Shown: positions 3,243 to 58,999 of the stretch, one piece after another
How the letters are laid out: the number at the start of each line of letters is the position of its first letter
How positions within the stretch are numbered: position 1 is the stretch's first letter
Source: Micromonospora echinaurantiaca
GTDB taxonomy: Bacteria > Actinomycetota > Actinomycetes > Mycobacteriales > Micromonosporaceae
DNA length: 64,000 nucleotides
Assembly: GCF_900090235.1 (NCBI RefSeq)
Contig: NZ_LT607750.1
Location: 3,608,501 to 3,672,500 of the forward strand
Reading direction: 5' to 3'
The notes under the pieces: generated by a model
Databases searched by the model: none
What the model was told of the DNA's origin: nothing
What the model saw: only the letters and a program-made list of their open reading frames with translations
Program-made: the position numbers and the translations under genes

Positions 3243-3259
3243 CGCACCCCGGGGGTGCG
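3243..3259 (+). terminator. short GC-rich hairpin after the GH15 stop codon
   Basis: CGCACCC and GGGTGCG form a perfect 7-bp stem with a 3-base loop directly after the TAG stop. No T-run follows, which is common for actinobacterial terminators. Function is inferred from position. Confidence 0.5.
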
Positions 3260-3393
3260 TGGCACCGCTGCGGATAATTCCGAAGCGGCGAAGCGATGTC
3301 CCGCTGGCGACCTATTTGCGGCCTTTCTTGATTCTGCTGATGCCCTCAAGGATAGGCGCCTCCCGTCGTAGCTCGATGCTTGGAACAAAGATC

Positions 3394-3882
3394 TCAGCGA
3401 ATACATAGGCCCTTCAGGGCCGTTCTGTCGCTAACCAGGCCGAGCTGACGCTCACGTCCCAGCCAATCAGATTGGCTGCGTCTCCGCGGTCTACAATCCA
3501 CAGACAATCCGCTGCCACGCCAGACCCCCCGCCAAACGGATGCCATTTTCAAGACGCCGGTGTCATCGACGAACAGCACACCCTGTGGGTCACCAAGGTG
3601 CCCGATCAGGTGGTCCCGCACGGCATCACGGACCGCCACGACATCCCAGTCCGCCTACCGCAAAACCGCTGCATCCCCTCCGGCGACACCTCACCCGCAC
3701 GCTCGGCCAGGGCCCGGCCGTTCTTCCGCTACAGCCCCCGCCGCGAGCCCGCACAGGTAGTGCCGCCCCCGCGCCCGCGGCTCCGCCCGCCAAAAGAGGC
3801 CTCCATTCCGAGCCCGCAGCCGATCCATCTCGGCCGCCCATGCATCGGCCTCCGCCACAATCACAGCCGACATCATGCGCAA
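3394..3882 (-). pseudogene. IS701-family transposase relic
   Basis: On the reverse strand, ADAWAAEMDRLRARNGG followed by RAEPRARGRHYLCGLAA matches the conserved N-terminus of IS701-type transposases. In another frame, VRDHLIGHLGDPQGVLFVDD matches the region carrying the first catalytic Asp (family form GVLVVDETGFLK). The parts are in family order but out of frame, and the C-terminal half is missing. Confidence 0.7.
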
Positions 3883-3925
3883 CCGGCATCCATAACTGTC
3901 GTTGCATTACTAGGTCGACGCAGTA

Positions 3926-4190
3926 ATGAGGTATCCGGGGGGTGGCAAAAGCGGTGCCGTCGCCGACTTCAAGGAGGATCCTAGCGGCGGTCCCGACGCC
4001 GATGCCGGCATCGAGGGCAGGACCGTGGCTGGAGGGTGTGCATCGAGCATCCTTTCGACCTCGTCGGCGGCCTGGTCGTGTTGTCGCAGGATGTCGCGGA
4101 GGGAGTCGCCGGGGGCGGGCCGGGACCGTCTCCGCAGCCTGGGACGCCGGGGACGGTGACGGTCTGCTCGTCGGGGGCGGTCATGATTTA
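3926..4190 (-). pseudogene. IS110-family transposase relic
   Basis: A reverse-strand fragment begins DEQTVTVPG, the same junction seen in the fuller IS110 copy at 21926-23115. At nucleotide level it follows that copy through the region for the MPGIGVRTAA/EVGDGTAF segment, with frameshifts. Only the central part of the transposase survives. Confidence 0.6.
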
Positions 4191-4343
4191 CTCGACCCGT
4201 TGGGCGACCGAGATTCCCCCGACCTAGACACGATCAACAAAGGTAAGGGGGACATCGCCTTCGCCGATCTCGAAGCCGGGCGGCAAGTCGCAAACGCCGC
4301 CCGAACGACCGATTCGGCTACCGTTGTCCCACCACACAGGTGC

Positions 4344-5000
4344 TCAGAAGGGCTCCGGTCGGACGGCGAGCAGGTCGATAAGGAGTGATGCAAGCACCAG
4401 CGCGCCGAGAACGAGGTAGACGATACCGCTGATCATGGCAAGCGCCCGCGCATTCTTGCCTCGCCGGGCCAGGAGGCGTCCGACGAGCCCACCCAACAAT
4501 GCGTAGACGGTGTCGATGAGGAAGCCGACGACGACAAACGAGAGCCCGAGGACTAAAAGCTGTACGGCGGAGTGTCCGATAGTGGTGTCGACGAACTGAG
4601 GCAGGAACGCGATGAAGAAGATCACGATCTTCGGATTGGTGAGATTCACGACCATGGCGCGCCAGAAGTTCCGGCCGGTGGCCGTCACCGGCGGCGCGTC
4701 CGGCCCGTCCGCGCGGCGCAGTGCTCCCATGCCGAGGTAGACGAGGTAGCCGGCGCCCACCAGGCGGATGGTCACCAGCGCGGCCGGGAGGGCTACCACG
4801 ACCGCGCCAACACCGGTGACCGCGACGAGGGTGTGGACCGTCATTGAGACGGCCATCCCGGATGCCGCGACCACTCCCGCGCGCCGACCGTTCCGCAGCG
4901 CGACGGCGCCGAGGTAGACATGGTCAGCGCCGGGCACCACGGCGATCACGAAGGACGCCGCCAGGAATGCCCCGTAGGCCTCCATCGGAACGCCGAGCAT
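4344..5000 (-). CDS. LysE-family amino-acid exporter
   Basis: A 218-residue inner-membrane protein beginning MLGVPMEAYGAFLAASFV, then PGADHVYLGAVALRNG, equivalent to the LysE/RhtB hallmark PGP..l....g...G. About six hydrophobic segments follow, with FWRAMVVNLTNPKIVIFF, the conserved second-half motif. The family exports basic or neutral amino acids. The ATG at 5000 overlaps the azlD stop codon by one base (TGATG), so translation is probably coupled; upstream in-frame starts would extend into azlD and are disfavoured. It is the last gene of an azlC-azlD-lysE operon, an unusual combination of two exporter types in one transcript. Confidence 0.88.
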   Translation of the reverse strand: MLGVPMEAYGAFLAASFVIAVVPGADHVYLGAVALRNGRRAGVVAASGMAVSMTVHTLVAVTGVGAVVVALPAALVTIRLVGAGYLVYLGMGALRRADGPDAPPVTATGRNFWRAMVVNLTNPKIVIFFIAFLPQFVDTTIGHSAVQLLVLGLSFVVVGFLIDTVYALLGGLVGRLLARRGKNARALAMISGIVYLVLGALVLASLLIDLLAVRPEPF

Positions 5001-5308
5001 CAGAACAACCACCGCACGGCGACCGTGATGGCCAGGCACACGAGCACTGTCACCAGCTGCCCGGCATGCAGTCGCCACGCCACAGCGGCTCCGGTCAGGC
5101 CCGCGAGAATCGCCGGATCTAGGCCACGCCACTGTGCATCGACCACGACGGAGACCAGCATCCCGGCCAGAAGGGCCGCAGGCAGCGCCTCGATCACCGC
5201 TTCAACCTGCTCGGGGAACCGCCGCTCATACAGCAACACCGGCCCTACCGCCTTCACCCCGTAGTTGATGACGGCGAAGATCAGAACCGTGACCAGCATC
5301 GAACTCAT
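5000..5308 (-). CDS. azlD: AzlD family branched-chain amino-acid exporter subunit
   Basis: A 102-residue membrane protein with about four hydrophobic segments: MLVTVLIFAVINYGVKAVGP, RRFPEQVEAVIEALPAALLA and two C-terminal helices, the typical size and layout of AzlD. AzlD is the small partner of AzlC in export of branched-chain amino acids and analogues. Its ATG (5308) overlaps the azlC stop by four bases and its own stop overlaps the following lysE-type start by one base, so the three genes form a tightly coupled operon. Confidence 0.9.
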   Translation of the reverse strand: MSSMLVTVLIFAVINYGVKAVGPVLLYERRFPEQVEAVIEALPAALLAGMLVSVVVDAQWRGLDPAILAGLTGAAVAWRLHAGQLVTVLVCLAITVAVRWLF

Positions 5309-6006
5309 GCGCGCCTCCTCGTCTCACGCAATGCCAACAGGGAGGCAATGCCGGCGCACAGCAGCGCAATCCCCGGCGGGACGAACCAGCACATCATCGC
5401 GGCGATCAACGCCGCCAGAAACACGGTCGACCGATGCCTCGGCTCGTCCCGTAGCGAATCGAGCACGAAGACGAGGAAGAACGCCGGGAAGATCGTATCC
5501 AGCCCCAGTGCGTGAGCGAGGTCCGGTCCGGGCGTGAGATAAGCCCCGATCGCAGTGCCGGCGACCCACGCCGGCCACTGCATCAGCGACGCGGCGATCA
5601 TCAGCTCCCGATCCACCGATCCATCCGGGCGATGAGCCGCCGCCCACGAACCATCCACAACGGCCTGGGCGTGCACCGACCGCACCCACCGGCCACCAAT
5701 CAGCGAGCGCGACGCCGTGACAGCCATCGGAACGAACCGCAGATTGATCAGCGTCGCCGCCCCCAGCGCGGCCATGGTGCCACCTCCGCCACTGAATGCG
5801 ATCACCAGCGCGAACTGTGCCCCACCGGCGAACACGACCGCCGACATCAGCACCACAAGCCACGCCGGCCAGCCCTCCGTGACCGCAGCCGCACCGAAGC
5901 TGACCGCCAACGCAAATGCCGCCACAGCCAGGCCGGACCCAATGCGCACACCACCTCGCCAACCATGCGGCCGGCCCCGTTCGCGCACCCGCGCTTTCGC
6001 GCTCAT
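5305..6006 (-). CDS. azlC: AzlC family branched-chain amino-acid permease
   Basis: A 233-residue multi-spanning protein of normal AzlC length. It carries the FAGGAQFALVIAF segment (family: F.G..Q......), ATLINLRFVPMA, and a C-terminal run of short hydrophobic helices. With AzlD it forms an exporter for branched-chain amino acids. The ATG at 6006 has a strong GGAGGTG ribosome site four bases upstream. It is the first gene of the azlC-azlD-lysE operon, and the region upstream contains the four regularly spaced half-sites described separately. Confidence 0.9.
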   Translation of the reverse strand: MSAKARVRERGRPHGWRGGVRIGSGLAVAAFALAVSFGAAAVTEGWPAWLVVLMSAVVFAGGAQFALVIAFSGGGGTMAALGAATLINLRFVPMAVTASRSLIGGRWVRSVHAQAVVDGSWAAAHRPDGSVDRELMIAASLMQWPAWVAGTAIGAYLTPGPDLAHALGLDTIFPAFFLVFVLDSLRDEPRHRSTVFLAALIAAMMCWFVPPGIALLCAGIASLLALRETRRRA

Positions 6007-35345: not shown

Positions 35346-35684
35346 GACGTGGGCGCGGGGAGCCATCAGGATGACTACCGGGCATCTCGTTCCGCGTACA
35401 AGCGGCCTGCGGAACCGGCACCGGCTCGACGGGACGGACGGGACAGCCGAGATCCCTCGACCGCAACGCCGGACCGTCAACGGCAACGCTGTCACAACGC
35501 CTTCGCAGCGCGGAAGAGCGATCATCGATCACGCCTGCGTATCGGTCGAAATCCGACGTGTGCCGCCTGACATCACGCCGAGCAGGCGTCATCGAGCCGG
35601 AGAGGAAGCCTGTCTCCGCCATCGACCTGACGAGCCGGCGCGAGTACCACTTGTCCGCACCGTAGTCCAAGGAGGGACATCATC
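35346..35684. other. upstream region of the candidate RiPP operon
   Basis: About 340 bases without a recognisable gene. It must contain the promoter of the precursor-like gene at 35685. No clear -10/-35 pair or inverted-repeat operator could be assigned. Confidence 0.35.
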
Positions 35685-35957
35685 ATGAATCCGCACCTCG
35701 AGAAGCCGGCGGCCGTCGGCGCCGCCGCACTGGCCGTCGCCGCCGCGGTCGCCGGGGCAAGCATCGCCGGAGAGCGCGCCGCGCCCGGTGAGGTCGCCGC
35801 CAAGTTGGCCAACTTCGCATCCGCGCTGCCCGCCGTCGAGCAGCTCAACCTTGCCGAGCTGATGACGTCGAACGACACCGTACTCGCCATTGCGATCCAG
35901 GCCACCCGGGAGCTGGGTCAGGTGGGGGCCGCCATCCACCATGGCTTCCAGAACTGA
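35685..35957 (+). CDS. candidate RiPP precursor peptide, 90 residues
   Basis: ATG 35685 has AAGGAGGG eight bases upstream. The N-terminal half is Ala-rich and hydrophobic (VGAAALAVAAAVAGASIAG, residues 11-29). The second half has two aromatic tripeptides of the type crosslinked by cyclophane-forming radical SAM enzymes: F44-A45-S46 inside NFASAL, and F88-Q89-N90 as the last three residues, preceded by IHHG. It is followed by a hairpin, a radical SAM/SPASM gene and an HExxH gene on the same strand, the order of RiPP operons. The protein does not end in the FxSxx motif of FxsA precursors. The precursor role is inferred from position and composition; a small membrane protein is the alternative. 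Confidence 0.65.
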   Translation: MNPHLEKPAAVGAAALAVAAAVAGASIAGERAAPGEVAAKLANFASALPAVEQLNLAELMTSNDTVLAIAIQATRELGQVGAAIHHGFQN

Positions 35958-35984
35958 TCGGACCATCCGCTGATCTAAATGGGG

Positions 35985-36010
35985 GTAGGCCGCGGCTTCG
36001 CGCGGCCTAC
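35985..36010 (+). terminator. 10-bp GC-rich hairpin between precursor and radical SAM genes
   Basis: GTAGGCCGCG (35985-35994) and CGCGGCCTAC (36001-36010) form a perfect stem with a GCTTCG loop, 27 bases after the precursor-like stop and 20 bases before the enzyme start. No T-run follows. It may act as a partial terminator or mRNA stabiliser giving more precursor than enzyme transcript. Confidence 0.55.
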
Positions 36011-36030
36011 CAATCTGCAGAGGAGTGCAG

Positions 36031-37245
36031 ATGACAGTTTCGGTCCAATGGCCGACCCGCTCGTGGGTGACCGCGGTCCGCGCTGCGGAGATCTGGCGGC
36101 CGTACCCTTTCCAGCAATTCATCCTCAAGCTGCACGGCTGGTGCAACCTGTCGTGTGACTACTGCTACGTCTACGAGATGGCGGATCGGTCGTGGCGGGA
36201 TCGCCCACGCGCCATGCCGACGGCAACGCTCGGGCGGGCGGCCAGCCGGATCGGCGAGCACGTCGCCGAGCACGACCTGCGCACGGTCAACGTTGTGCTG
36301 CACGGCGGGGAGCCTCTGCTGGCCGGGCTGGACAGCATCGCCCACGCGGTGCGCGCCGTCCGGCGGGCGGTTCCTACCGGGGTCGACCTGACATTCCGGC
36401 TGCAGACCAATGGCACGCTGCTGACCGGAAAGGTGCTGGACCTCCTGCTAGACCTCGACGTCAAGGTGGGCATCAGCCTGGATGGCAACCGTCGAGGCAA
36501 CCGACATCGCCGATACCCTGGCGGCCGGGAAAGCTACGACGCCGTGGTACGCGGGATCGAGACGTTGCGCCAGGATCGGTATCATCGGCTGTTCTCGCAC
36601 CTTTATGCCACCGTCGACCTGGACAACGACCCGATCGAGACGTACGAGACACTGCTATCGTTTCAGCCGCCGTTCGTGGATTTCCTTTTGCCGCACGGAA
36701 CCTGGGACGCGCCGCCGCCGGGCCGCACCACCGATCCAGCCAGCACACCGTATGCGGACTGGCTGGTCGCCGTCTTCGACCGCTGGTACGGGGCCCCCCG
36801 ACAGGAAACCCGGATCCGCTTTCTGAGTTCGATCATGAACTTGATACTCGGTGGTCACGGCCAGGTGGAGACGATCGGACTCGAGCCACGCGCGCTCGTG
36901 GTGGTCGACACGGACGGGTCCATCCAGCAGGTGGACTCCTTGAAGGCGACCTTCCCGGGAGCGCCGGAGACCGGGCTGAATGTCTTCCGGCATGCCTTCG
37001 ACGACGCCCTGGACCATCCCGTGACGGTGTCTCGCCAGGTCGGCATGTCGGCCCTGTGCGACACCTGCCAGCGCTGCCCGGTGCGGGATATCTGTGGCGC
37101 CGGGTACTTTCCTCACCGCTACCGCGCCGGCAGCGGGTACCTGAACCCGTCCGTGTACTGCCCGGACCTGTTCGCCCTCATCGTCCACATTGGTGACCGT
37201 ATCGTGAGAGACCTGAACGAACTCGTGGAGCCTACATGCAGATGA
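36031..37245 (+). CDS. FxsB-type radical SAM/SPASM peptide-modifying enzyme
   Basis: A 404-residue protein. WRPYPFQQFILKLHGWCNLS opens the radical SAM domain, with C38-x3-C42-x2-C45 in HGWCNLSCDYCYVYEM binding the [4Fe-4S] cluster. VNVVLHGGEPLLAGLDS (GGE SAM-binding motif), LQTNGTLLTGKVLDLLLDLD and VGISLDG follow. The C-terminal SPASM-type region near residues 343-395 has CDTCQRCPVRDICGAGYFPH and a later NPSVYCPDLF. This is the FxsB family layout; relatives install aromatic-to-side-chain cyclophane bonds in precursor peptides. ATG 36031 follows GCAGAGGAG; GTG 36025 is an alternative. The 3' end overlaps the HExxH gene. Confidence 0.88.
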   Translation: MTVSVQWPTRSWVTAVRAAEIWRPYPFQQFILKLHGWCNLSCDYCYVYEMADRSWRDRPRAMPTATLGRAASRIGEHVAEHDLRTVNVVLHGGEPLLAGLDSIAHAVRAVRRAVPTGVDLTFRLQTNGTLLTGKVLDLLLDLDVKVGISLDGNRRGNRHRRYPGGRESYDAVVRGIETLRQDRYHRLFSHLYATVDLDNDPIETYETLLSFQPPFVDFLLPHGTWDAPPPGRTTDPASTPYADWLVAVFDRWYGAPRQETRIRFLSSIMNLILGGHGQVETIGLEPRALVVVDTDGSIQQVDSLKATFPGAPETGLNVFRHAFDDALDHPVTVSRQVGMSALCDTCQRCPVRDICGAGYFPHRYRAGSGYLNPSVYCPDLFALIVHIGDRIVRDLNELVEPTCR

Positions 37246-39032
37246 CGACGTTGAGCCTTCCCACCGACGAGTTCGATCTGCTGGCCGCCGGATCCGCGGG
37301 TGCCGATACTCATACGCTTCTACGCACTTGCCAACTGACAAAGCGGTTCCTGCAACTGCGGGTGCTGGCCGACGACACCGCGAACGCCCACCCCGAGGTG
37401 CGACAGCATATCGACCTGCTCTCGGCCGTGCAGCGGACCGACGCCGCAGCGGTGGCGACGGTGCTGGGTCATCCCCAGGTTGGTGCGTGGCTGTCGCACT
37501 GCCTCCAGCGACTTCACACCACGACCGAGCCGGACGACGTACCGCTGGATGTCACGGTTGGACAGATCGCCGCAGTTGCTGCCGCCGCAGCGATTCGAGC
37601 CGGCCATTGCGCCGAGGTCACCGTGCCGCTGCGCCGGGGCGAGCTCATGCTGCCCACGCTCGGGCTGGCCCGGCTGGCGGACGCAGCCTCGTTCGATCCG
37701 GCGACGATCCGGATCGAGCCGGCTGGCACGGTCGTCGCCAGCGGTGGCCGCACGATAGCGATCCCGCCTGACCCAAGCGCCGACGCACCCGGGTGGTACG
37801 GCCTCCGCCGCCTCTCGGCGACTGCCGGCGGGCACACCGTGGTCGTGGATCTGGACGACCTCAGTCCACACCGCCCGAGCCTGGACCCGTTGGCCCCGCG
37901 CCTCTCCGCGCTGGAGTTAGCCCAGTGGCAGGAAATGCTGGACCGGTCGTGGGCGCTGCTTGTCGCGGTGCATCCCCGGCATGCCTGCATGGTCGGTGTG
38001 TCGCTGCGCTCGCTCATTCCGCTCGCTGGCATGCCGGGCATGGCGAGCGCAAGCATGACCTCGAGCGACGCGTTCGGTGCCGTGTTCCTCTCCCGCCCCG
38101 TCGACAATGAGATGTTTGCCGCCACGATCGTGCACGAGCTGTTCCACTCGACGCTGAACGCGATACTGGACCTGATTCCCTTGCATCGCGCACCGGGCGG
38201 GGAACTGCTGTACTCGCCGTGGCGCGACGATCCCCGCCCGCTGCACGGCATCCTGCACGGCGCGTACTCGTTCATGGGCGTCGGCGACTTCTGGCGACGC
38301 CGACATGAAAACCGCGAAGACCGGGAGGCGCGGTTCGAGTTCCTGCGTACCAGGCACGAGGTCGAGGTCGCGCTGCGCACCCTGCTGCACAGCGATTACC
38401 TCACCGAGGAGGGTGTGCGTTTCGTCCGCGCAATGAGCGCCAACATCGCGTCCTGGCCGAACCCGAACGCGCCGGACGAGGCGGCCGGTGCCGCCGAGGA
38501 CGTGACCGACCACTGGCTCCGGTGGCGCCTGCACAACCTGCACCCCGACCAGGCTGAGATCGACGCAATCGCCACCGCTTGGCGCAACGCCGAAGATCAG
38601 CACCTGGACCTAGACGCCCTTCGTACGACGATCCGTCCGGTGACCCGCACCCAGTTCCGCGGCGAACGGGGTCGGATCAGAGTGCGCACTGTGCAACTGC
38701 GCGACCCGGACTTGTTCCAACGGATCGTCAAGGGGCAAGCAGAACGACCGGTCGAGGCCACCCCGGCCGACGTCGCTTACATCGCCGGCCACTACGCGGA
38801 CGCCATCGAGCGCTATGAGCGTGAGCTGACCGAGCGCCCCGACCGCGCCGAGCAGTGGGCCGGTCTCGCGCTGGCCTGCCGCCGCAGCGGCGACGAGGAG
38901 GCGGCCCTGGTTCTCACCAGCCGCCCGGAGGTGGTACGCGCATTGCACCGCGCCGTGACGCCACCGGCTAGCCCGGTTCAGTTGGCGAGGTGGCTAGGCA
39001 AACGGAGCGTGGATCGTGTCCCAGCTCGATGA
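37236..39032 (+). CDS. HExxH-domain peptide-modification protein (aKG-HExxH type)
   Basis: A 598-residue soluble protein with TIVHELFHSTLNAILDLIPL at residues 297-316, so H300-E301-L-F-H304 forms the HExxH metal site. The conserved downstream LHGILHGAYSFMGVGDFWRR probably supplies the third ligand. This matches the HExxH family found beside FxsB-type radical SAM enzymes, some members of which are reported to be 2-oxoglutarate/iron-dependent peptide beta-hydroxylases rather than proteases. The C-terminus has a TPR-like segment (YIAGHYADAIERYERELTER). ATG 37236 has GGAG five bases upstream; ATG 37242 overlaps the radical SAM stop as ATGA. Translational coupling implies action on the same peptide. 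Confidence 0.85.
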   Translation: MQMTTLSLPTDEFDLLAAGSAGADTHTLLRTCQLTKRFLQLRVLADDTANAHPEVRQHIDLLSAVQRTDAAAVATVLGHPQVGAWLSHCLQRLHTTTEPDDVPLDVTVGQIAAVAAAAAIRAGHCAEVTVPLRRGELMLPTLGLARLADAASFDPATIRIEPAGTVVASGGRTIAIPPDPSADAPGWYGLRRLSATAGGHTVVVDLDDLSPHRPSLDPLAPRLSALELAQWQEMLDRSWALLVAVHPRHACMVGVSLRSLIPLAGMPGMASASMTSSDAFGAVFLSRPVDNEMFAATIVHELFHSTLNAILDLIPLHRAPGGELLYSPWRDDPRPLHGILHGAYSFMGVGDFWRRRHENREDREARFEFLRTRHEVEVALRTLLHSDYLTEEGVRFVRAMSANIASWPNPNAPDEAAGAAEDVTDHWLRWRLHNLHPDQAEIDAIATAWRNAEDQHLDLDALRTTIRPVTRTQFRGERGRIRVRTVQLRDPDLFQRIVKGQAERPVEATPADVAYIAGHYADAIERYERELTERPDRAEQWAGLALACRRSGDEEAALVLTSRPEVVRALHRAVTPPASPVQLARWLGKRSVDRVPAR

Positions 39033-39620
39033 CAGGCCCGACCCGGCCGCGCTCGAGGATGCGTATCGGATCGGGTCATAGTGGCGAGGGCAGGGGGTTT
39101 CGTCAGTGCGCATCGACGTCTTTCAATCGCCGTCGCGGCTGGGCGCACTGACGCGACGACCGAGTTGGGCATCATCGGTCAGCAGGGTGTTGATCGCGAA
39201 GGCTGCGGAGTTGCGCCGCATGGCCGCCACCGGCGGCAATGCGCGCCGCAGGCAACCTTGGCGCACTGCTGGTCGACATCGCCGCGGCAAGGAGGCCGAG
39301 CACTGACTAGGGATCGCCACCACTGCGGGCCAGCTCGTGCCGGCCAGCGAGTTAGGCGAGCTGCTGGGGCATCGCGGCGAGTTCGCGGAGGTTGAGTGCC
39401 GGCAGCATGTCGCGTTGGCAGCGAGCAACCCACCGACGGTATGGCGGCTCGGGCTGCTCTCTACGACCAGGGCCGACACCGCGAGGCGGAACAGTGGTTC
39501 CGGCGTGCCTCGGCCGACCGGCATCCGGACGCCATGCACCGGTTGGGCCAACTCGCAGCCCGGCAAGGCGCTGCTCGGCCACAGCTCGGCAGCGTTCACC
39601 GTCCGCGGCTGCAGCTAGGT
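39018..39620 (+). pseudogene. relic of a TPR/Sel1-like repeat protein
   Basis: GTG 39018, overlapping the end of the HExxH gene, begins VSQLDDRPDPAALEDAYRIG and then stops. Further on, in other frames, AAELRRMAATGGNA and YDQGRHREAEQWFRRASADR HPDAMHRLGQLAAR have the spacing of tetratricopeptide/Sel1 repeats. The pieces are on the same strand as the RiPP enzymes and end just before the convergent SARP gene, so a third accessory gene of this operon may have decayed. Confidence 0.5.
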
Positions 39621-39629
39621 CGCCGGCGA

Positions 39630-42557
39630 TCAGCCGAGAGGCGGCGGCTCCGGAGGCGGCGGTGCGGCCGGCTCATCGAGCTTTCTCAGGCGGACCCGCA
39701 CCGGGTCCACCTCACGTACGGGAAGCCCGGTCAGGATGTTCAGCGCCTGTTGCCAGGCGTCGCGCGCCGCCTGACTCTCCTCGGCGGCATGGTGGGCGTC
39801 GCCGAGTCGGACGAGAGTCTTCGCCTCGTGAAACCGGTCACCCAGCTCCCTGAACAGGTCGATGGCGCGAGCGTAGCTGAGGATCGCCGAATGCTGCTGC
39901 CCGAGGTGGTGCCGGGCGAACCCGATGGTGTCCCACGTGTGGGCCTCGCCATCCATGTTGCCGAGATGCTGGTGGAGACCCTGCGCCCGCAGGCAGTGCG
40001 TGAGAGCCTCGCGGTGGCGGCCGAGTCGGATCTCGCACCAGCCGGCGGCGTTCAACGACTCGGCCTCCCCCCAGCGATGGCTGGCGGCGCGGAACAGTTC
40101 CTGGGCGCGACGGACGTGGTCCAGAGCCCGGTCAGGCTGATCGAGACAATCCCACAGGAATCCGATGTTGTGATGGGTCTGGGCCTGTCCTGCGAGGTTG
40201 TCGAGCCGACCGTAGAGGTCCAACGCCTCCGTGAAATGGCGGTGGGCCTCCTCATAGTCGCCGAGCAGCGTACTGACGCTGGCGATCGCGCGGTGGGTGT
40301 ACGCCTCGGCCACCGGCTCACCCAGGTGCTCGGCTGCCCGTAACCCTTCGCGCCACACGTCAAGTCGGTCACTCGAACCGACCTGCCGGTTCAGGAACGT
40401 GTCCAACACCCAGGCGAGCTGCCAAGTGCGCCGGTGCCATCCCAATCCGGCAGCCCGTCCTACGGCGGCGAGTAGCGGGCGTTTTTCGGCGTCCAGCCAC
40501 GCCAGCGCCGCCTGGCGATCGGAGAACTGCTCCGGGCACGTGCCGACCGATGGCGGCTCGAGCGGAATCGGGATCGCGTCCCGAGCCGGATGCAGCAGCC
40601 GATCGGCGGCGTATCCGGTGTGCAGGTAGTGGTCGAGCAGCCGTTTGACGGCGGCGTCCCGCTCACGCGCCGGGACATGGGTTCCGGCGAGTTCGGTGGC
40701 GTACGTGAGCACGAGGTCATGGCAGACGTACCGGCCTGGAGCTCGCTCGCGGAGCAGACTGATTCCGGCCAGTTCCGTCAGCATCTTCCGGGCCTGCGGA
40801 AGGCGAACAGCGGCAAGGCTTGCCGCCGCACGCGTTCCTATCTCGCAGCCGTGGTTCAGGCCGAGGAGCCGGAACAGGCGTGCCGCAGCCGGGGTGAGCG
40901 CCGCGTACGACCAGGAGAACGCGGCCCGGATCCGACCGCTGGGATCGATGGAGTCCAGCGCGTCAAGGCGGTCGCCCATCTCGATCAGCTCTGCGACGAC
41001 CTGCACAAGCGGGAATCCGGTCTGCTGAGCGCGCGCGGCGATGATGCCGAGCGCGAGCGGCAGACCGGCGCAAAACGCGATCACATTCTCGGCCGCGGCG
41101 GGATCGGCATCCACCCGATCGGCTCCGAGCCGGTCGGCCAGTAGCTCCCGAGCCTCGCACCCGGTCATCGGATCGAGGACGATTGAATGGGCACCGCCGT
41201 CGACAACCAGACCGGTGAGCAGGTCGCGGCTGGTGACGACGACCAGCGCGGTCCGGGTGCCTGGCAGCAGCCGACGGACCTGACCGCTGTCGCGGGCATT
41301 GTCCAACAGGATCAGGACCCGTTTACCGGCGACAAGGCTACGGTACAGGCCGAGCTGGGATTCGAGGGCTGCTGGAATCCGCTCCGCCGGCACCTGGAGG
41401 GCGTCCAGTAACCCTCGCGCAACCTCGGCGGTGCTCAATGCCGACTGGCTCCCATCGAACCCCCGCAGGTCAACATAAATCTGTCCGTCCGGGAACAGGT
41501 GCGCGAACCGGTGCGCCCAATGCACCGCCAACGCGGTCTTGCCGACTCCCGCCGTGCCGGACACCGCCACGATGGCGACCGCGGTCGACGCCCCACCCAG
41601 CAGAGCCTCCATGGTCGCCAACTGCGACTTGCGGCCGACGAAGACGGCCAAATCGGCTGGCAGCTGTGCCGGTCTCACGACGACGGCCCCGGCTACCGCC
41701 TCCGCGACCGGCACTCCGGCAGACGGCCGGGACGACCCGACGGTCGATACTGGAGATGTCGGTACCGCCGGTTCACCCCGCAGAATCTCCCGGTGCAACG
41801 CCTGGAGCTCCGGACCGGGGTCGGTGCCCAACTCCTCCGCGAGTCGCGCCCGGGCCCGGGCGTAGTGCTCCAGAGCGTCGGCCGGCCGACCCGCGGCCCG
41901 CAGCACCCGCATGAGCGCCGCGATCAGCGACTCGGCGCGCGGATGCTCGCTGACCATCCGCGTGAGGGGGCCGAGCACCTCGCCGGGGTTGCCGACCCGC
42001 AGCTCGGCGTCGGCCCAAGCCACCGTGGCGTCGAGCCTCTCCTCTTCCCAGCCGTCGCGCATGCAGGCAGCCCAACTCCCACGCATCCCGGCCAACGGGA
42101 CGCCGTGCCACTGAGCCAGCGCTTCCCGCAGCAACCCCGCCCGTCGCTCCTCCGGGCAGTCCGGCTCCCTCGCGGTGGCGGCGAACCGACGGAACCGGAA
42201 CAGGTCGATCAAGTCCGGATCAACGTCCAGCAGGTAACCACCGTTGGAATGGACCAGCCGTGGTGACATCCCGGCGGCGTGCACCGCACCGAGTACCTTG
42301 CGTACCCGGGTGACATGGGCGCGCAGCGCCCCTCGGGCATCGCTTGGCGGAGAGTCGTCCCAGAGCCTCTCGACCAGAACGTCCGACGGCACGACCTGTC
42401 CGGGATCCGCCAGCAGGGCGGCCAGTAGCGCGCGCCGCCGCGGTTCCCCGGAGTCGACGGGCTGCCCATCGACCAGCAGCACCACCGGGCCCAGAAGGCG
42501 ATACCGCACCGTCGTCGTCAGACCGCTGTACGAAGTCGCGCCGCCTCTGGTCCTCAT
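39630..42557 (-). CDS. AfsR/SARP-type regulator with BTAD, NB-ARC and TPR domains
   Basis: A 975-residue regulator. Residues 17-115 form the OmpR-like SARP DNA-binding domain (VRYRLLGPVVLLVDGQPVDS, RRRALLAALLADPGQVVPSD VLVERLW). Residues 120-265 form the BTAD domain (ALEHYARARARLAEELGTDP). A linker leads to an NB-ARC ATPase with Walker A GTAGVGKT at 334-341, RVLILLDNARDSGQVRRLLP and GLPLALGIIAARAQ. The C-terminal third holds TPR repeats (GDYEEAHRHFTEALDLYGRL). SARPs activate secondary-metabolite clusters. It converges with the RiPP operon, which makes it a candidate controller. ATG 42557 follows GGAG; GTG 42509 is an alternative. Confidence 0.9.
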   Translation of the reverse strand: MRTRGGATSYSGLTTTVRYRLLGPVVLLVDGQPVDSGEPRRRALLAALLADPGQVVPSDVLVERLWDDSPPSDARGALRAHVTRVRKVLGAVHAAGMSPRLVHSNGGYLLDVDPDLIDLFRFRRFAATAREPDCPEERRAGLLREALAQWHGVPLAGMRGSWAACMRDGWEEERLDATVAWADAELRVGNPGEVLGPLTRMVSEHPRAESLIAALMRVLRAAGRPADALEHYARARARLAEELGTDPGPELQALHREILRGEPAVPTSPVSTVGSSRPSAGVPVAEAVAGAVVVRPAQLPADLAVFVGRKSQLATMEALLGGASTAVAIVAVSGTAGVGKTALAVHWAHRFAHLFPDGQIYVDLRGFDGSQSALSTAEVARGLLDALQVPAERIPAALESQLGLYRSLVAGKRVLILLDNARDSGQVRRLLPGTRTALVVVTSRDLLTGLVVDGGAHSIVLDPMTGCEARELLADRLGADRVDADPAAAENVIAFCAGLPLALGIIAARAQQTGFPLVQVVAELIEMGDRLDALDSIDPSGRIRAAFSWSYAALTPAAARLFRLLGLNHGCEIGTRAAASLAAVRLPQARKMLTELAGISLLRERAPGRYVCHDLVLTYATELAGTHVPARERDAAVKRLLDHYLHTGYAADRLLHPARDAIPIPLEPPSVGTCPEQFSDRQAALAWLDAEKRPLLAAVGRAAGLGWHRRTWQLAWVLDTFLNRQVGSSDRLDVWREGLRAAEHLGEPVAEAYTHRAIASVSTLLGDYEEAHRHFTEALDLYGRLDNLAGQAQTHHNIGFLWDCLDQPDRALDHVRRAQELFRAASHRWGEAESLNAAGWCEIRLGRHREALTHCLRAQGLHQHLGNMDGEAHTWDTIGFARHHLGQQHSAILSYARAIDLFRELGDRFHEAKTLVRLGDAHHAAEESQAARDAWQQALNILTGLPVREVDPVRVRLRKLDEPAAPPPPEPPPLG

Positions 42558-45718: not shown

Positions 45719-46711
45719 GTGCCCCACGCTAACGCACCCCTGACCGAACGCGGCCGGCTGCGTCTGGCCAGCTGCGTCGTTGATGACGGCTGGCCGCTGC
45801 GCCGGGCGGCGCAGCGGTTCCAGGTCAGTCCGACCATGGCGAAGCGGTGGGCCGACCGGTACCGGGTCGAGGGTGTGGCGGGGATGGTCGACCGGTCCAG
45901 CCGGCCGCTGCGGTCACCGCGACGCACGCCGGCGCCGGTGGAGCGGAAGGTGCTGCATCTGCGGGCGAAGCGCCGGTGGGGACCGGCGCGGATCGGTGGC
46001 CGGTTCGGGCTGGCGGCGTCGACGTGTCATGCGGTGCTGCGCCGGGCCGGAGCCGCCCGCCTGGCCCACCTGGACCGGGCCACGGGCCGGCCGGTACGCC
46101 GTTACGAGCATCCCGCGCCCGGAGACCTGGTCCACGTCGACATCAAGAAGCTGGGCAACATCCCCGACGGCGGCGGATGGCGCACCCAGGGCCGGCGTCA
46201 AGGAAAACTCAACCGCACCGCCACCACAGACCACGCCACCGACCGGTGGGGCGGCGCCCGGCTCGGCTACTCCTACCTGCACACCGCCATCGACGACCAT
46301 TCCCGGCTGGCCTACACAGAGATCCTCGACGACGAACGCAAAGACACCGCGGCCGCCTTCTGGCGCCGCGCGCAGGCCTGGTTCGCAGCCCACGGCATCA
46401 CCGTCCGCCGGGTCATCGCCGACAACGGCTCCTGCTACAAGTCCTTCCTCTGGCGCGACACCCTGCACGAGCTGGGCATCGCCGTGAAGAAGACCCGCCC
46501 CTTCCGGCCGCAAACCAACGGAAAGGTCGAACGGTTCCACCGCACCCTTACCGAGGAATGGGCCTACGCCCGCCCATACCCCTCCGAATCAGCCCGCCGA
46601 GCAGCCCTACCCGCCTGGCTCCACGCCTACAATCACCACCGCGCCCACACCGCACTCGGCGGCCACCCACCAACCAGCCGCGTCCCCAACCTCTCTGGAC
46701 AGCACAACTAA
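45719..46711 (+). CDS. IS481-family transposase
   Basis: A 330-residue protein. The N-terminal HTH (LTERGRLRLASCVVDDGWPL, RRAAQRFQVSPTMAKRWADR) is followed by KRRWGPARIGGRFGLAASTC and the DDE integrase core: HVDIKKLGNI (first Asp), VIADNGSCYKS (second Asp) and KVERFHRTLTEEWAYARPY (Glu), then YNHHRAHTALGGHPPTSRV. All three catalytic residues are present and the frame is uninterrupted, so the enzyme is probably active. GTG 45719 with GGGAGG five bases upstream. Confidence 0.95.
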   Translation: MPHANAPLTERGRLRLASCVVDDGWPLRRAAQRFQVSPTMAKRWADRYRVEGVAGMVDRSSRPLRSPRRTPAPVERKVLHLRAKRRWGPARIGGRFGLAASTCHAVLRRAGAARLAHLDRATGRPVRRYEHPAPGDLVHVDIKKLGNIPDGGGWRTQGRRQGKLNRTATTDHATDRWGGARLGYSYLHTAIDDHSRLAYTEILDDERKDTAAAFWRRAQAWFAAHGITVRRVIADNGSCYKSFLWRDTLHELGIAVKKTRPFRPQTNGKVERFHRTLTEEWAYARPYPSESARRAALPAWLHAYNHHRAHTALGGHPPTSRVPNLSGQHN

Positions 46712-46820: not shown

Positions 46821-46823
46821 TTG

Positions 46824-48272
46824 GTGATCAGTGTGCATGATGCTGGTTCTGCTGGTGCGTTCGGGGAGCTGGCGGCGTTCCGGCGGGAGTTTCATGGCTG
46901 TCTGACCGCTCGGGCGGACGCGATGTTCGAACTGGCCGACGCGGTGTTGTGCGGCGACGGGCCGGTGCATTCGCTGGTGGAGCTGTCGCTGGTGGGCGAG
47001 CATCGTCGTGGTCATGGGTCGCTGTACGCGGCGCTGGCCCGAGGTCGGGTGGATGTCGAGCGGCTGCGCAGGAGCTTGGCGGCGCTTCCGCTGCCTCGCG
47101 GGGCCGACGGCCGCCTCGTTCTGGCGGTGGACATCACCTGTTGGCTGCGGCCGGACGCGCACACCTCCGCGGAGCGGATCCTGTGCCACACCTACGGCCG
47201 CGGCAAGGACCAGCACGTGACGATTCCTGGCTGGCCGTACTCGTTCGTCACGGCGTTGGAGCCCGGCCGCAGTTCCTGGACCGCGCCGCTGGACGCTCAG
47301 CGACTCGCGCCGGGCGATGATGCCGCCACTGTCACCGCCGGGCAACTGCGCCACCTCGTGCAGCGACTCATCACCGCCGGGCAGTGGCGCACCGGTGATC
47401 CCGACATCCTGGTCGTCGCCGACGCCGGCTACGACACGCCCCGATTGGCATACCTGCTGCGCGACCTGCCGGTGCAGGTGCTGGGCCGGATGCGCTCCGA
47501 TCGAGTGCTGCGCCGCGCGGCCCCGCCCCGACGGCCGGGCACGAACGGCCGACCACCCCGCCACGGCGGCGAGTTCATCTTCGGCGATCCCGCCAGCTGG
47601 GGCGCGCCCGAGGTGACCACGGTGACTGACACCCGCCTCTACGGCACCGCGACCGCCCGCAGCTGGAACCGGCTGCATCCCCGGCTGACGCACCGCAACG
47701 CCTGGATCGACCAGACCGGCGACCTGCCACTCATCGAAGGCACCGTGATCCGGCTGGAGGTGAATCACCTACCCAGCGGCGCGATCCCGAAGCCGGTGTG
47801 GCTGTGGTGGTCCGAGACGGATGCCACACCCGCCGACGTCGACCGGCTCTGGCAGGCGTTCCTGCGCCGCTTCGACATCGAGCACACCTTCCGGCTGCTC
47901 AAACAGACCCTCGGCTGGACCTGCCCGAAGATCCGCACCCCACAAGCCGCCGACCGGTGGACCTGGCTCATCCTGGCCGTCTACGCGCAGCTGCGCCTGG
48001 CACGCGGCCTCACCGGTGACCTGCGCCGCCCCTGGGAGAAACCGACACCGCCCGAACGCCTCTCACCCGCCCGCGTCCGCCGAGGGTTCCGGCACCTCCG
48101 CCCGAAGACCGCCTGCCTGGCCAGCGCGCCGAAACCCTCCCGCCCAGGCCCAGGGCGACCACCAGGCCGACCCAACAAGCAACCCGCTCAACGACACGAC
48201 GTGCACATCAGCCCGAACGCAAGGAAGAAACCGAAGACCTCGAGCAGTCCCCGCCCACGCCGCACAGGTTAA
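46824..48272 (+). CDS. transposase, IS701-like/NF041680-type
   Basis: A 482-residue protein starting VISVHDAGSAGAFGELAAFR. It carries LVLAVDITCWLRPDAHTSAE (first catalytic Asp), HTYGRGKDQHVTIPGWPYSF, DILVVADAGYDTPRLAYLLR (second Asp), and RRFDIEHTFRLLKQTLGWTC with the catalytic Glu, ending in a Pro/Lys-rich basic tail. This is the layout of a large actinobacterial DDE transposase group related to IS701. GTG 46824 is preferred over TTG 46821; no strong ribosome site is free outside the hairpin. Confidence 0.85.
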   Translation: MISVHDAGSAGAFGELAAFRREFHGCLTARADAMFELADAVLCGDGPVHSLVELSLVGEHRRGHGSLYAALARGRVDVERLRRSLAALPLPRGADGRLVLAVDITCWLRPDAHTSAERILCHTYGRGKDQHVTIPGWPYSFVTALEPGRSSWTAPLDAQRLAPGDDAATVTAGQLRHLVQRLITAGQWRTGDPDILVVADAGYDTPRLAYLLRDLPVQVLGRMRSDRVLRRAAPPRRPGTNGRPPRHGGEFIFGDPASWGAPEVTTVTDTRLYGTATARSWNRLHPRLTHRNAWIDQTGDLPLIEGTVIRLEVNHLPSGAIPKPVWLWWSETDATPADVDRLWQAFLRRFDIEHTFRLLKQTLGWTCPKIRTPQAADRWTWLILAVYAQLRLARGLTGDLRRPWEKPTPPERLSPARVRRGFRHLRPKTACLASAPKPSRPGPGRPPGRPNKQPAQRHDVHISPNARKKPKTSSSPRPRRTG

Positions 48273-49049: not shown

Positions 49050-50145
49050 GTGACCAGCATGTCCTACCGGCCGACGACCAGCCAAGACGACACCTCACCC
49101 GAAGCGGTTCTCGGTGTCGACACGCACAAGGAGGTCCACGTCGCCGCAGTCGTCAGCATCCATGGCGTCCTACTCGGCAGCCACAGTTTCCCGACCACGG
49201 CGGAGGGCTACCGCACGATGCTGGACTGGGCTGCCACACTCGGGCGAGTGCGGCAAGCCGGGGTGGAGGGCACCCATTCCTACGGCGCCGCGCTGACTCG
49301 CCACCTGCTGACCGTCGGAATCAGCGTCATCGAGGTCAACCAGCCGGACAAGGCCCACCGGCGCCGCCACGGCAAGACCGACGCCATCGACGCCGAAGCA
49401 GCGGCCAGAGCCGTCCTGTCCGGCCGAGCCACCGCCGCCGCCAAGACCAGCGACGGTCACGTCGAGCGCGTTCGCCTGTTCAAAACTGGCCAAAGCCTCG
49501 GCCACCAAGGCTCGGACCCAGGCGATCAACCAGCTCAAAGCCATCCTCGTCGGCGCCGACCCAACCCTGCGCGATTCCCTGACCGGGCTCAGCAACCCCA
49601 AGCTCGTCCGCCGCTGCGCTGAGCTCGACCCCGGCCAGCCCGACACCCCAATGTCAGCCGCCGCATACACCCTGCGTCTGCTCGCGCGCCGGATCATCGA
49701 ACTTACCCGCGAGGCCGATGACCTGAACCAGCGGATCACCGATGCCATCAACGCCCACACACCCGAACTGCTGCGACGTCACGGTGTCGGTCCCGACACC
49801 GCTGCGGCGCTGCTCCTGGCCGCCGGCGACAACCCGCAACGACTCACCACCGAAGCGTCGTTCGCCGCGCTCTGCGGAGCCAGCCCGATCGAGATGTCCT
49901 CCGGCAAGACCCGACGGCGCCGCCTCAACCGAGGCGGCGACCGCCAAGCAAACTCCGCCCTCTACATCATCGTCATCGCCCGACTTCGCTGGGACCAGCG
50001 CACCCGCGCCTACATCGACCGGCGCGTCTCCGAGGGCAAAACCAGACGCGAAGCGATCCGCTGCCTCAAACGCTACGTCGCCAGGGAACTCTACGAACTC
50101 ATCGTCCAGCCAACGAGCCACACCATCCACCGCTCGACCGCTTGA
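49050..50145 (+). pseudogene. IS110-family transposase with a single frameshift
   Basis: The first frame (GTG 49050) has AVLGVDTHKEVHVAAVVSIH, AGVEGTHSYGAALTRHLL and HGKTDAIDAEAAARAVLSGR, the DEDD catalytic residues. At TTCAAAACTGG (about 49480) one extra A shifts the frame; the +1 frame continues LAKASATKARTQAINQLKAI, GPDTAAALLLAAGDNPQRLT, SFAALCGASPIEMSSGKTRR and RGGDRQANSALYIIVIARLR to the end. It is complete apart from that base. A sequencing error in the A-run is possible. Confidence 0.85.
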
Positions 50146-53651: not shown

Positions 53652-54545
53652 CTAAGGGACGTCTCGTAACCCTGGCGTCTGTCTGTTGAGGATGATCGGG
53701 CAGGATGCCTGGGTGCAGGTGATCACGGCAGCCCACCTTGAGTGGATCTTCCCGTTCACCGGGCTGCAGCCCGCCCAGTTCCGCAAGCTGGTCCGGCTGG
53801 TCGCCGAGCGTGGCGGTGATGGCATCGCCGACGGCCGGCCGGGCCGGCAATGGGCCCTCGACCTGGCCGACCGGGTGCTGCTGGTGGCCACCTACTGGCG
53901 TACCAACCTGACGATGCGCCAGATCGGCCCGCTGTTCGGGGTGTCGCACTCCGCGGCGCACCGGGTCATCGACACCCTCGCGCCGCTCCTCGCACTGGCG
54001 CCGGTGCGCAAACGGCCGGTCGAGCAGATCGCGATCGTCGACGGGACTCTGATCCCCACCCGCGACCACCGCCTGGCCGCCCGGAGCAAGAACTACCGGT
54101 ACTCGACGAACCTGCAGGTCGCCATCGACGCCAGCACCCGCCTGGTCATCGCCGTCGGCGACCCGCAGCCCGGCAACCGCAACGACACCATCGTCTACCG
54201 CACCTCGGGCATTCAGGAGAAGCTGGACGGGAGGCCGGTGATGGCAGACGGCGGCCACCGGGGCAACCCCGAGGTGATCATCCCGTACCGCAAGCTCGCC
54301 GACGGGAGCGACCTGCCCGCCTGGAAAGAAGCCCTCAACGTCGAACACCGGACCGTCCGAGCAGGGGTCGAACACGCTCTGGCCAGGATGAAGTGCTTCA
54401 AGATCTTGCGTGACTACCGCCGCGCCGCCCACACATTGACCGACGCCGCTTCCGGCATCGCCCACCTCCACAACATCATCCTCGCCGGCTGACCACCGGC
54501 CTGAGGCCGGGCAACGCCTTCACCCAGTTACGAGACGTTCCTTAG
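53652..54545 (+). mobile_element. complete IS5-related element upstream of the response regulator
   Basis: CTAAGGGACGTCTCGTAAC (53652-53670) and GTTACGAGACGTTCCTTAG (54527-54545) are 18/19 inverted repeats. One uninterrupted transposase gene lies between. The left repeat supplies an in-frame TAG upstream of the regulator's TTG start. Confidence 0.85.
53686..54492 (+). CDS. IS5-related (DDE_Tnp_4-type) transposase
   Basis: A protein of up to 268 residues. ITAAHLEWIFPFTGLQPAQF and WALDLADRVLLVATYWRTNL TMRQIGPLFGVSHSAAHRVI form the HTH part. EQIAIVDGTLIPTRDH carries the first Asp, PGNRNDTIVYRTSG the second, and VRAGVEHALARMKCFKILRD the Glu. The frame is intact and flanked by good repeats, so the element is probably active. 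The exact start is uncertain; in-frame starts at 53686 and 53692 lie close to the left repeat. Confidence 0.88.
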   Translation: MRMIGQDAWVQVITAAHLEWIFPFTGLQPAQFRKLVRLVAERGGDGIADGRPGRQWALDLADRVLLVATYWRTNLTMRQIGPLFGVSHSAAHRVIDTLAPLLALAPVRKRPVEQIAIVDGTLIPTRDHRLAARSKNYRYSTNLQVAIDASTRLVIAVGDPQPGNRNDTIVYRTSGIQEKLDGRPVMADGGHRGNPEVIIPYRKLADGSDLPAWKEALNVEHRTVRAGVEHALARMKCFKILRDYRRAAHTLTDAASGIAHLHNIILAG

Positions 54546-57867: not shown

Positions 57868-58118
57868 CGTTCAAGGAGGCTCAGCTGCGGGACAAGCCGG
57901 TCCGGGAGATCGCGAAGGACCTGGGGATCTCGGAGTCGTGTCTGCGGAACTGGCTGGCCCAGGCCGACACCGACGACGGTAAGCGCGAGGGCTTGACCAG
58001 CGACGAGCGCAAGGAGTTGGCGGCGCTGCGGAAGGAGAAGCGGCGCCTGGAGGTGGAGAACGAAATCCTGCGCCGGGCCGCGGCCTACTTCGCGCGGGAG
58101 AACGTCCTCCCAAAATGA
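57868..58118 (+). pseudogene. IS3-family OrfA, 5'-truncated
   Basis: The forward frame reads FKEAQLRDKPVREIAKDLGI SESCLRNWLAQADTDDGKRE, then a leucine-zipper-like RKELAALRKEKRRLEVENEI LRRAAAYFARENVLPK and stop. This is the IS3 OrfA helix-turn-helix plus coiled coil, but the first codons and the left terminal repeat are absent; the sequence starts next to the sigma gene. The TGA overlaps the OrfB ATG at AAAATGA. Confidence 0.75.
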
Positions 58119-58999
58119 TCTACCCGGTCGTCGCTGATCTCGCCGCCGGCGGGATCGCGGTGGCGGTGGCGTGCCGGGTCCTCGGAGTGTCGACGTCCGG
58201 CTACTACGACTGGCGAAGCCGACCCGTCTCGCCGCGTGAGGCGGCCGATCAGGCGCTCGGTGAGCTGATCCGCGAGGTCCATCAAATGTCACGGGGCACC
58301 TACGGATCCCCGCGGATGCACGCCGAGCTGCGGCTGGCCGCGGGGGTGCGGTGCAGCCGCAAACGCGTCGAGCGGCTCATGCGGCACTCCGGTCTGCAGG
58401 GCGTCTACCGACGCCGCCGCACGGGCTGCACCGTGCGCCACCCTCACGCCTCGCCGTCGGCGGACCTGGTCAACCGGCGGTTCGGCGCCGACCGGCTGGA
58501 CGAGTTGTGGGTCACCGACATCACCCAGCACCGCACCCAGACCGGCTGGGTGTACTGCGCGGTCGTGCTGGACGTGTTCGCCCGCCGGGTCGTGGGCTGG
58601 TCGATCGCCGACCACCTACGCTCCGAGCTGGTCATCGACGCCCTCGACATGGCCCGCTGGCGACGCCGCCCCACCGAGGGGCAGACAGTGGTCCACTCCG
58701 ATCACGGCAGTCAATACACGTCCTCGGCCCTCGGGCAACGGCTACGGTCGGCCGGGCTGCTCGGCTCCATGGGCTCCATCGGCGACTGCTACGACAACAG
58801 CATGGTCGAGTCGTTCTTCGGCTCCATGCAGCTCGAACTGCTCGACCGCCAGCCCTGGGCCACCCGCCAGGAGCTGGCCAACGCCATCTTCGAGTGGATC
58901 GAGGCCTGGTACAACCCACGCCGACGCCACTCAAGCCTTGGCAACCTGTCCCCCATCGACTACGAACGACAACACACCCCGGCCGCAGCCGCAGCCTGA
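58115..58999 (+). CDS. IS3-family transposase OrfB
   Basis: A 294-residue integrase-type transposase. VACRVLGVSTSGYYDWRSRP and GSPRMHAELRLAAGVRCSRK RVERLM form the HTH_21 region. LWVTDITQHRTQTGWVYCAV has the first Asp, VHSDHGSQYTS the second, and DNSMVESFFGSMQLELLDRQ the Glu, ending YNPRRRHSSLGNLSPIDYER. All catalytic residues are present. ATG 58115 overlaps OrfA by four bases at an A-run suited to -1 frameshifting. Because OrfA is truncated the element is probably immobile by itself. Confidence 0.92.
   Translation: MIYPVVADLAAGGIAVAVACRVLGVSTSGYYDWRSRPVSPREAADQALGELIREVHQMSRGTYGSPRMHAELRLAAGVRCSRKRVERLMRHSGLQGVYRRRRTGCTVRHPHASPSADLVNRRFGADRLDELWVTDITQHRTQTGWVYCAVVLDVFARRVVGWSIADHLRSELVIDALDMARWRRRPTEGQTVVHSDHGSQYTSSALGQRLRSAGLLGSMGSIGDCYDNSMVESFFGSMQLELLDRQPWATRQELANAIFEWIEAWYNPRRRHSSLGNLSPIDYERQHTPAAAAA

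Follow-up and report, generated by a model that had tools for sequence, protein, structure and literature searches.

Genes and enzymes of the locus

We analyzed a 64,000-nucleotide stretch of the Micromonospora echinaurantiaca genome (contig NZ_LT607750.1, positions 3,608,501 to 3,672,500; hereafter, the window), in which three genes lie head to tail on the plus strand. They encode a 90-residue peptide (35685..35957), a radical S-adenosylmethionine (SAM)/SPASM protein (36031..37245), and a HExxH protein (37236..39032) whose open reading frame (ORF) starts within the end of the radical SAM gene (37236 versus 37245). Judged from sequence comparisons, the locus probably specifies a triceptide-type pathway for a ribosomally synthesized and posttranslationally modified peptide (RiPP), acting on an FxsA-derived precursor with a membrane- or Sec-like N terminus. 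The peptide gene is preceded by a Shine-Dalgarno sequence (AGGAGG, 35670..35675, plus strand) read directly from the sequence nine bases 5' of the ATG, and AGGAGG is also found 5' of the precursor start codon in a homologous locus of Asanoa ishikariensis. The radical SAM ORF runs from GTG 36025, but its start is likely ATG 36031, because the Asanoa gene opens with the same ATGACAGTT. A first-pass annotation of this DNA had described the three genes and the ribosome site, cysteines C38, C42, and C45 of the radical SAM protein (numbering that is valid from ATG 36031), HELFH at residues 300 to 304 of the HExxH protein, and, in the peptide, FAS at residues 44 to 46 and FQN at residues 88 to 90, directly before the stop codon and after IHHG; all of these were found in place.

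The radical SAM protein scored 442.5 bits against the NCBIfam model for FxsB (TIGR04269; cut-off, 370), which we take to be the same family as IPR026335, and the HExxH protein scored 149.9 bits against TIGR04267, also of NCBIfam (cut-off, 40). By family, both above curated cut-offs, the enzymes are of the FxsB type and the 2-oxoglutarate (aKG)-HExxH type, in agreement with the earlier annotation, so that the third gene is assigned to the peptide beta-hydroxylases; its product has a TPR-like C terminus. The C-x3-C-x2-C motif, GGE, and the SPASM-region cysteines are all present in the radical SAM protein; the first three cysteines, GGE, C348, C351, and C357 are kept in 88/88 sequences and C379 in 86/88, and residues H300, E301, H304, P328, D332, and R334 of the HExxH protein are identical in all 62 sequences compared. 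In the PDB, the best sequence match of the radical SAM protein is ChlB (9gm3; E value, 8e-72), and a profile search with the HExxH protein yielded 22nu and ChlH (8s5f). A HExxH model made from four sequences, which is poor at the active site (mean predicted local distance difference test score, 69.1) and served for fold matching only, was matched by Foldseek to SjiH (22ob; E value, 9e-16) and ChlH. The comparison with ChlB, ChlH, and SjiH covers the enzymes; ChlB and ChlH are, according to the structure title, halves of a fusion protein, unlike the separate proteins described here.

Passages of PMC11002830 report that MscB (IPR026335) links Phe C4 to Ser Cbeta, that XncB and OscB crosslink Phe to Asn, and that HaaB and YhhB work on His, which is joined to Ala or Arg, the His-x-Ala crosslink being that of HaaB. 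The peptide contains an IHH string, but membership of the radical SAM protein in the YhhB maturase family (NF041707) was rejected (329.3 bits; cut-off, 445). HEXXH proteins are described in parts of PMC12636437 as aKG-dependent beta-hydroxylases, of which the ChlH type acts on a cyclophane that is already in place. A second FxsB-like radical SAM gene (50% identity) is present elsewhere in the same genome (L002; G000:C1:4317242-4321366), adjoining a TPR-like ORF and a small two-helix ORF that was named SLATT-like by eye; no convincing FxsA-type ORF was recognized in its neighborhood (L099) by hidden Markov model (HMM).

Leader and C-terminal end of the precursor

Homologues of the peptide are rare. 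A single-sequence search of 5.8 billion proteins retrieved only the peptide itself, the peptide alone had no match among plasmids or in a genome-contig collection, and in 61 genomes its only strong match was in its own genome, the others being weak (best E value, 0.00998). Scanning genome contigs by the HExxH alignment, with two short patterns, likewise gave no match. The radical SAM protein, on the other hand, had a match at 1e-90 in 119 of 200 Micromonosporaceae genomes, and the best one outside its own genome (82% identity; G110, Asanoa ishikariensis) led to a homologous locus where all three genes recur in unchanged order and the HExxH protein is 76% identical and the peptide (90 residues; P0014, a hypothetical protein in the database) 66% identical over 80 residues. 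A profile of the two peptides found the type in 2 of 354 Micromonosporaceae genomes, our own included; both copies stand beside the enzyme pair, and no homologue was found away from it. Ratios of nonsynonymous to synonymous substitution (dN/dS) between the two loci are 0.21 for the radical SAM gene and 0.35 for the HExxH gene; within the peptide they are 0.48 for residues 1 to 45, 0.62 for residues 46 to 76, and 4.05 for residues 77 to 90, the last value coming from 14 codons only in an ungapped alignment. By this comparison, the enzymes and the leader are held between the two genera and the core end is not.

For comparison, 64 precursors were assembled, comprising 63 hand-picked from 90 loci and the metagenomic peptide P0021. 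The loci are a nonrandom sample: 70 are high-ranking radical SAM matches of the 200 genomes plus our own, and the other 20 were taken from among high-ranking HExxH matches in 394 genomes. Precursor starts were assigned by visual inspection and ribosome site; some of the chosen peptides score low on the HMM (L052, 0.7; L087, 3.7; L041, 6.0), and the 27 unused loci include some with candidates above 15 bits (L042, L157, and L160).

The peptide ends in FQN and its Asanoa homologue in HGS, so that both lack the C-terminal F-x-S-x-x signature. An FxsA-type leader is nevertheless recognized by two HMMs of our own, noncurated construction (16.4 and 16.1 bits, with no shuffled sequence as high). The first, trained without our peptide, that of Asanoa, and the other N-terminally extended peptides, gave 16.4 bits for ours and 18.4 for Asanoa (best of 1,000 shuffles, 8.7); the second, from 59 precursors, gave 16.1 and 18.2 bits (best of 2,000 shuffles each, 11.0 and 11.3) and ranked our peptide top of the 521 window ORFs of 40 to 150 residues, the next reaching 6.3 bits. 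Pfam scans were uninformative on this point, since the copy used gave PF27839 for 0/8 peptides. The alignments cover residues 46 to 74 and 44 to 72 (together 35814..35906, plus strand), which places FAS (44 to 46) at the edge of the leader, and FAS was rejected as the core for this reason. The first-pass annotation had counted a different small ORF beside the enzymes in other genomes as evidence against the peptide; such ORFs do occur beside many other FxsB genes, but many are FxSxx-COOH-family precursors with a leader similar to ours. Because of these precursors, the peptide looks like a divergent FxsA offshoot and not, as had been supposed, a separate precursor family.

The other half of that proposal, an aromatic-x-N ring at the very C terminus, is favored in a widened form, aromatic-x-N/S. 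In an ungapped alignment of the two equal-length peptides, a pairing that is our choice and contrary to the gaps of MAFFT, F88-Q89-N90 (35946..35954, plus strand) lies over H88-G89-S90, so that an aromatic-x-N/S-COOH end is kept while its letters are not; FAS, at the leader's edge, is identical in both. As both members end in this manner, an aromatic-x-N core at the C terminus fits best, and FQN is likely the core of our peptide. When eight peptides were aligned by MAFFT, two columns were invariant; F88 occupies one of them, which also holds the core F of six FxsA-type peptides. His-x-Ser/Asn at the core place in three other precursors of the family (L074, AAHSSTP; L075, AAHGNALDT; L088, AAHGSTP) supports HGS as a core. 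Counted from the first aromatic-x-[SND] motif within the last 40% of each peptide, the tail is zero in ours and that of Asanoa and at least 2 residues in the 61 others with the motif (L073 has none). The L074, L075, and L088 precursors lie about 2.6 to 2.9 kb after the radical SAM start, and their radical SAM genes cluster together.

The uncharged N-terminal segment

Residues 9 to 29 of our peptide (35709..35771, plus strand) and of the Asanoa peptide form a run of 21 residues in which D, E, K, R, H, N, Q, and P are all absent. The first-pass annotation had noted neither this run nor the broken Sel1/TPR gene described below. Such a 21-residue run is found in 5 of the 64 precursors, the other three being those of Plantactinospora mayteni (L037; P0009) and Dactylosporangium fulvum (L038; P0010) and the metagenomic P0021, whereas the remaining 59 have at most 12; a metagenomic peptide outside the sample, P0030, is the sixth, and all six runs are exactly 21 residues long. 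Nor is such a run hidden upstream of the selected start codons: in the 63 precursors with a locus, 80 residues of preceding open frame contained none (longest, 14). The net charge of the preceding n-region is 0 in our peptide, +1 in Asanoa, +3 in P0009, P0021, and P0030, and -1 in that of D. fulvum. In the three precursors with +3 the segment ends in VASA with D or N following, as in a textbook Sec signal, and one of them bears the UniRef name "Secreted protein." A membrane or export role of the segment is possible.

P0009, P0010, P0021, and P0030 resemble our peptide in that the 21-residue segment is followed by an FxsA leader, with FxsB and HExxH neighbors in the two that have a locus; however, their cores (FSNAPPR, FQSVSPQ, FNSAPPMNIQL, and FYNAPPPKLTH, respectively) leave 4 to 8 residues after the motif, and PF27839 is recorded for them in the database. 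In the part of the literature that was searched, no FxSxx precursor with an N terminus of this kind turned up; one may still be in print, for example, in work on triceptides and the radical SAM maturases of actinobacteria. The bufferins, MNIO-modified RiPPs, are comparable insofar as the precursor of a modified peptide opens with an export-type signal, there a Sec signal peptide, but their enzymes are different and their chemistry is Cys based, and their export is demonstrated (PMC12452194), whereas ours is inferred. At a Plantactinospora locus (L066), the enzymes that accompany an FxsA precursor with a signal have as neighbors, at 2388-6003 on the minus strand, genes for two proteins that were named by eye: a membrane protein that is acyltransferase-like and a large one that is metallopeptidase-like.

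Proposed pathway, competing explanations, and surroundings

In the architecture that we propose, the 21-residue uncharged segment is followed by the FxsA leader (about residues 44 to 74) and then a short variable linker, and the peptide closes at the carboxylate with the core F88-Q89-N90. The radical SAM enzyme, of the FxsB type, would bind the leader and crosslink the F88 ring with Cbeta of N90, yielding a three-residue cyclophane (-2 Da), and the HExxH protein, as an Fe/2-oxoglutarate oxygenase, would add a beta-hydroxyl in or beside the ring (+16 Da); we regard both predicted modifications, the cyclophane being placed at FQN, as likely. The N-terminal segment might afterward target the matured peptide to the membrane or to Sec, a step of which we are least sure. 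The closest known systems are the FxSxx-COOH (FxsA)/FxsB/HExxH triceptide systems of actinobacteria (TIGR04268, TIGR04269, and TIGR04267), which share the precursor adjoining the radical SAM and HExxH genes, the enzyme families, the leader, and an aromatic-x-N/S near the C terminus; our peptide differs in failing TIGR04268, in its 21-residue uncharged segment, and in having nothing after the aromatic-x-N/S motif. Tentatively, a small FxsA-derived lineage could couple the radical SAM cyclophane to export: the peptide would be ringed (and hydroxylated) in the cytosol and then pass through Sec as a mini-protein of about 55 to 60 residues capped by a cyclophane, with the ring on the C-terminal carboxylate residue and Phe (FQN) or His (HGS) as its partner. 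If the product is secreted, the question of what FxSxx products do shifts from the cell interior to the surface, and the precursor is directly testable; moreover, a last-residue ring and the exchange of Phe for His between enzymes of 82% identity would probe the placement of the aromatic partner.

A number of observations weigh against this pathway. TIGR04268, the FxSxx-COOH model, does not list our peptide at E values up to 10, whereas five of the eight aligned peptides match, and the peptide is without precomputed PF27839, which is present in 25 of 29 listed proteins. The leader scores are modest, the matches end short of the core, and there is some circularity, as the HMM training sequences were partly retrieved by a profile containing our peptide and that of Asanoa. 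Only these two members of the peptide type are known, and the substitution ratio of the core end depends on the few codons given above. Literal conservation of FQN, which the first-pass annotation had set as a test, is contradicted by HGS (the identity of FAS did hold); MAFFT pairs F85 of Asanoa, not H88, with F88 and gaps both ends, and if the last motif is counted instead of the first, L087 has a tail of 0 (FVS, after an FTN) and L044 a tail of 1, weakening the distinction of the zero tail. From the enzyme trees as a whole, a single origin of the segment is not demonstrated. A FastTree radical SAM tree gathers the four extended loci in a 6-tip clade (support, 0.72), of which the other two tips (L048, whose peptide is identical to P0002 of Micromonospora andamanensis, and L036/L065, whose ORF was picked by eye) have candidate precursors without the segment. 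In a more careful radical SAM tree, the segment needs 2 changes (0/500 shuffles as low), and a single clade is not rejected by the approximately unbiased test (P = 0.216). In the midpoint-rooted HExxH tree, L038, our locus, Asanoa, and L048 form a 4-tip clade (0.81) with L037 apart, and the smallest clade that includes all four extended loci comprises 56 of the 62 tips.

Among the competing explanations, the strongest, with somewhat less than an even chance, is that the segment is only an Ala-rich extension of the leader and that the product, as with other FxSxx peptides, remains cytosolic. The charge of 0 before our Ala-rich stretch is weak for a Sec signal, and in D. fulvum it is even -1; no peptide-processing transporter was recognized beside the genes in the annotated part of the window, where an MFS efflux gene of the DHA2 type, 2.2 kb upstream and on the opposite strand, is the nearest transporter gene; and passages of PMC7159879, which make no mention of export, associate FxSxx peptides with AP-ATPase/TPR conflict genes and discuss them as parts of conflict systems. 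Against a purely cytosolic role stand the exact length of 21 uncharged residues in six precursors, as well as the +3 n-regions, the V-A-S-A ends, and the UniRef name noted above. It is improbable, to a much greater degree, that the ring sits elsewhere, for example, at the internal FAS, or that there are several rings, such as F85-A86-A87 plus H88-G89-S90 in Asanoa. The identity of FAS in both homologues and the MAFFT placement of F85 would suit such rings, as would the His-x-Ala crosslink of HaaB (passages of PMC11002830) and the term multiple cyclophane synthase given to ChlB in a reference title of PMC12636437, but FAS belongs to the margin of the leader match, and no core motif coincides with it when the eight peptides are aligned.

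Decay of the locus in our genome, so that the peptide is no longer processed, has a similarly small chance. After the Asanoa HExxH gene lies an intact Sel1/TPR gene (L063:7109-7768, minus strand), and its counterpart in the window (39016..39569, plus strand) is broken by stops and frame changes (tblastn E value, 7e-26, with internal stops and a second segment in a different frame; 76% in blastn across 676 columns); this loss of a fourth gene also counts against an active pathway, as do the transposase genes about 7 to 20 kb downstream and the presence of the peptide in just two of the 354 family genomes. Yet the three reading frames are intact with their motif residues kept, the ribosome site is strong, and the dN/dS values of the two enzymes relative to Asanoa stand at 0.21 and 0.35. 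Finally, the 90-residue ORF might be an unrelated small membrane protein and another ORF the true precursor, given that the peptide has no family match and one known homologue at 66%; this is very unlikely in view of its best FxsA score among the window ORFs, its common precursor place, the ribosome site, and its C-terminal variability.

Beyond the Sel1/TPR gene, the neighborhoods of the two loci differ (by eye), and Asanoa has another ATPase/TPR-like ORF about 6 kb upstream (by eye). An AfsR-like SARP/NB-ARC/TPR regulator gene (39630-42557, minus strand), which the HaaT and FxSxx TPR models score below their cut-offs, was rejected as a pathway member, being convergent and not directly after the Asanoa genes. 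The spacer between the precursor and radical SAM genes contains a predicted 11-bp stem-loop without a T-run (35984..36011, plus strand), a possible attenuator; the Asanoa spacer folds otherwise in the same fold computation. Farther downstream is a stretch rich in insertion sequences, with five transposase genes or fragments (45719-46711, 46821-48272, 49050-49622, 53686-54492, and 58115-58999) of the IS481-like, DDE_5, IS110, DDE_Tnp_4, and rve types.

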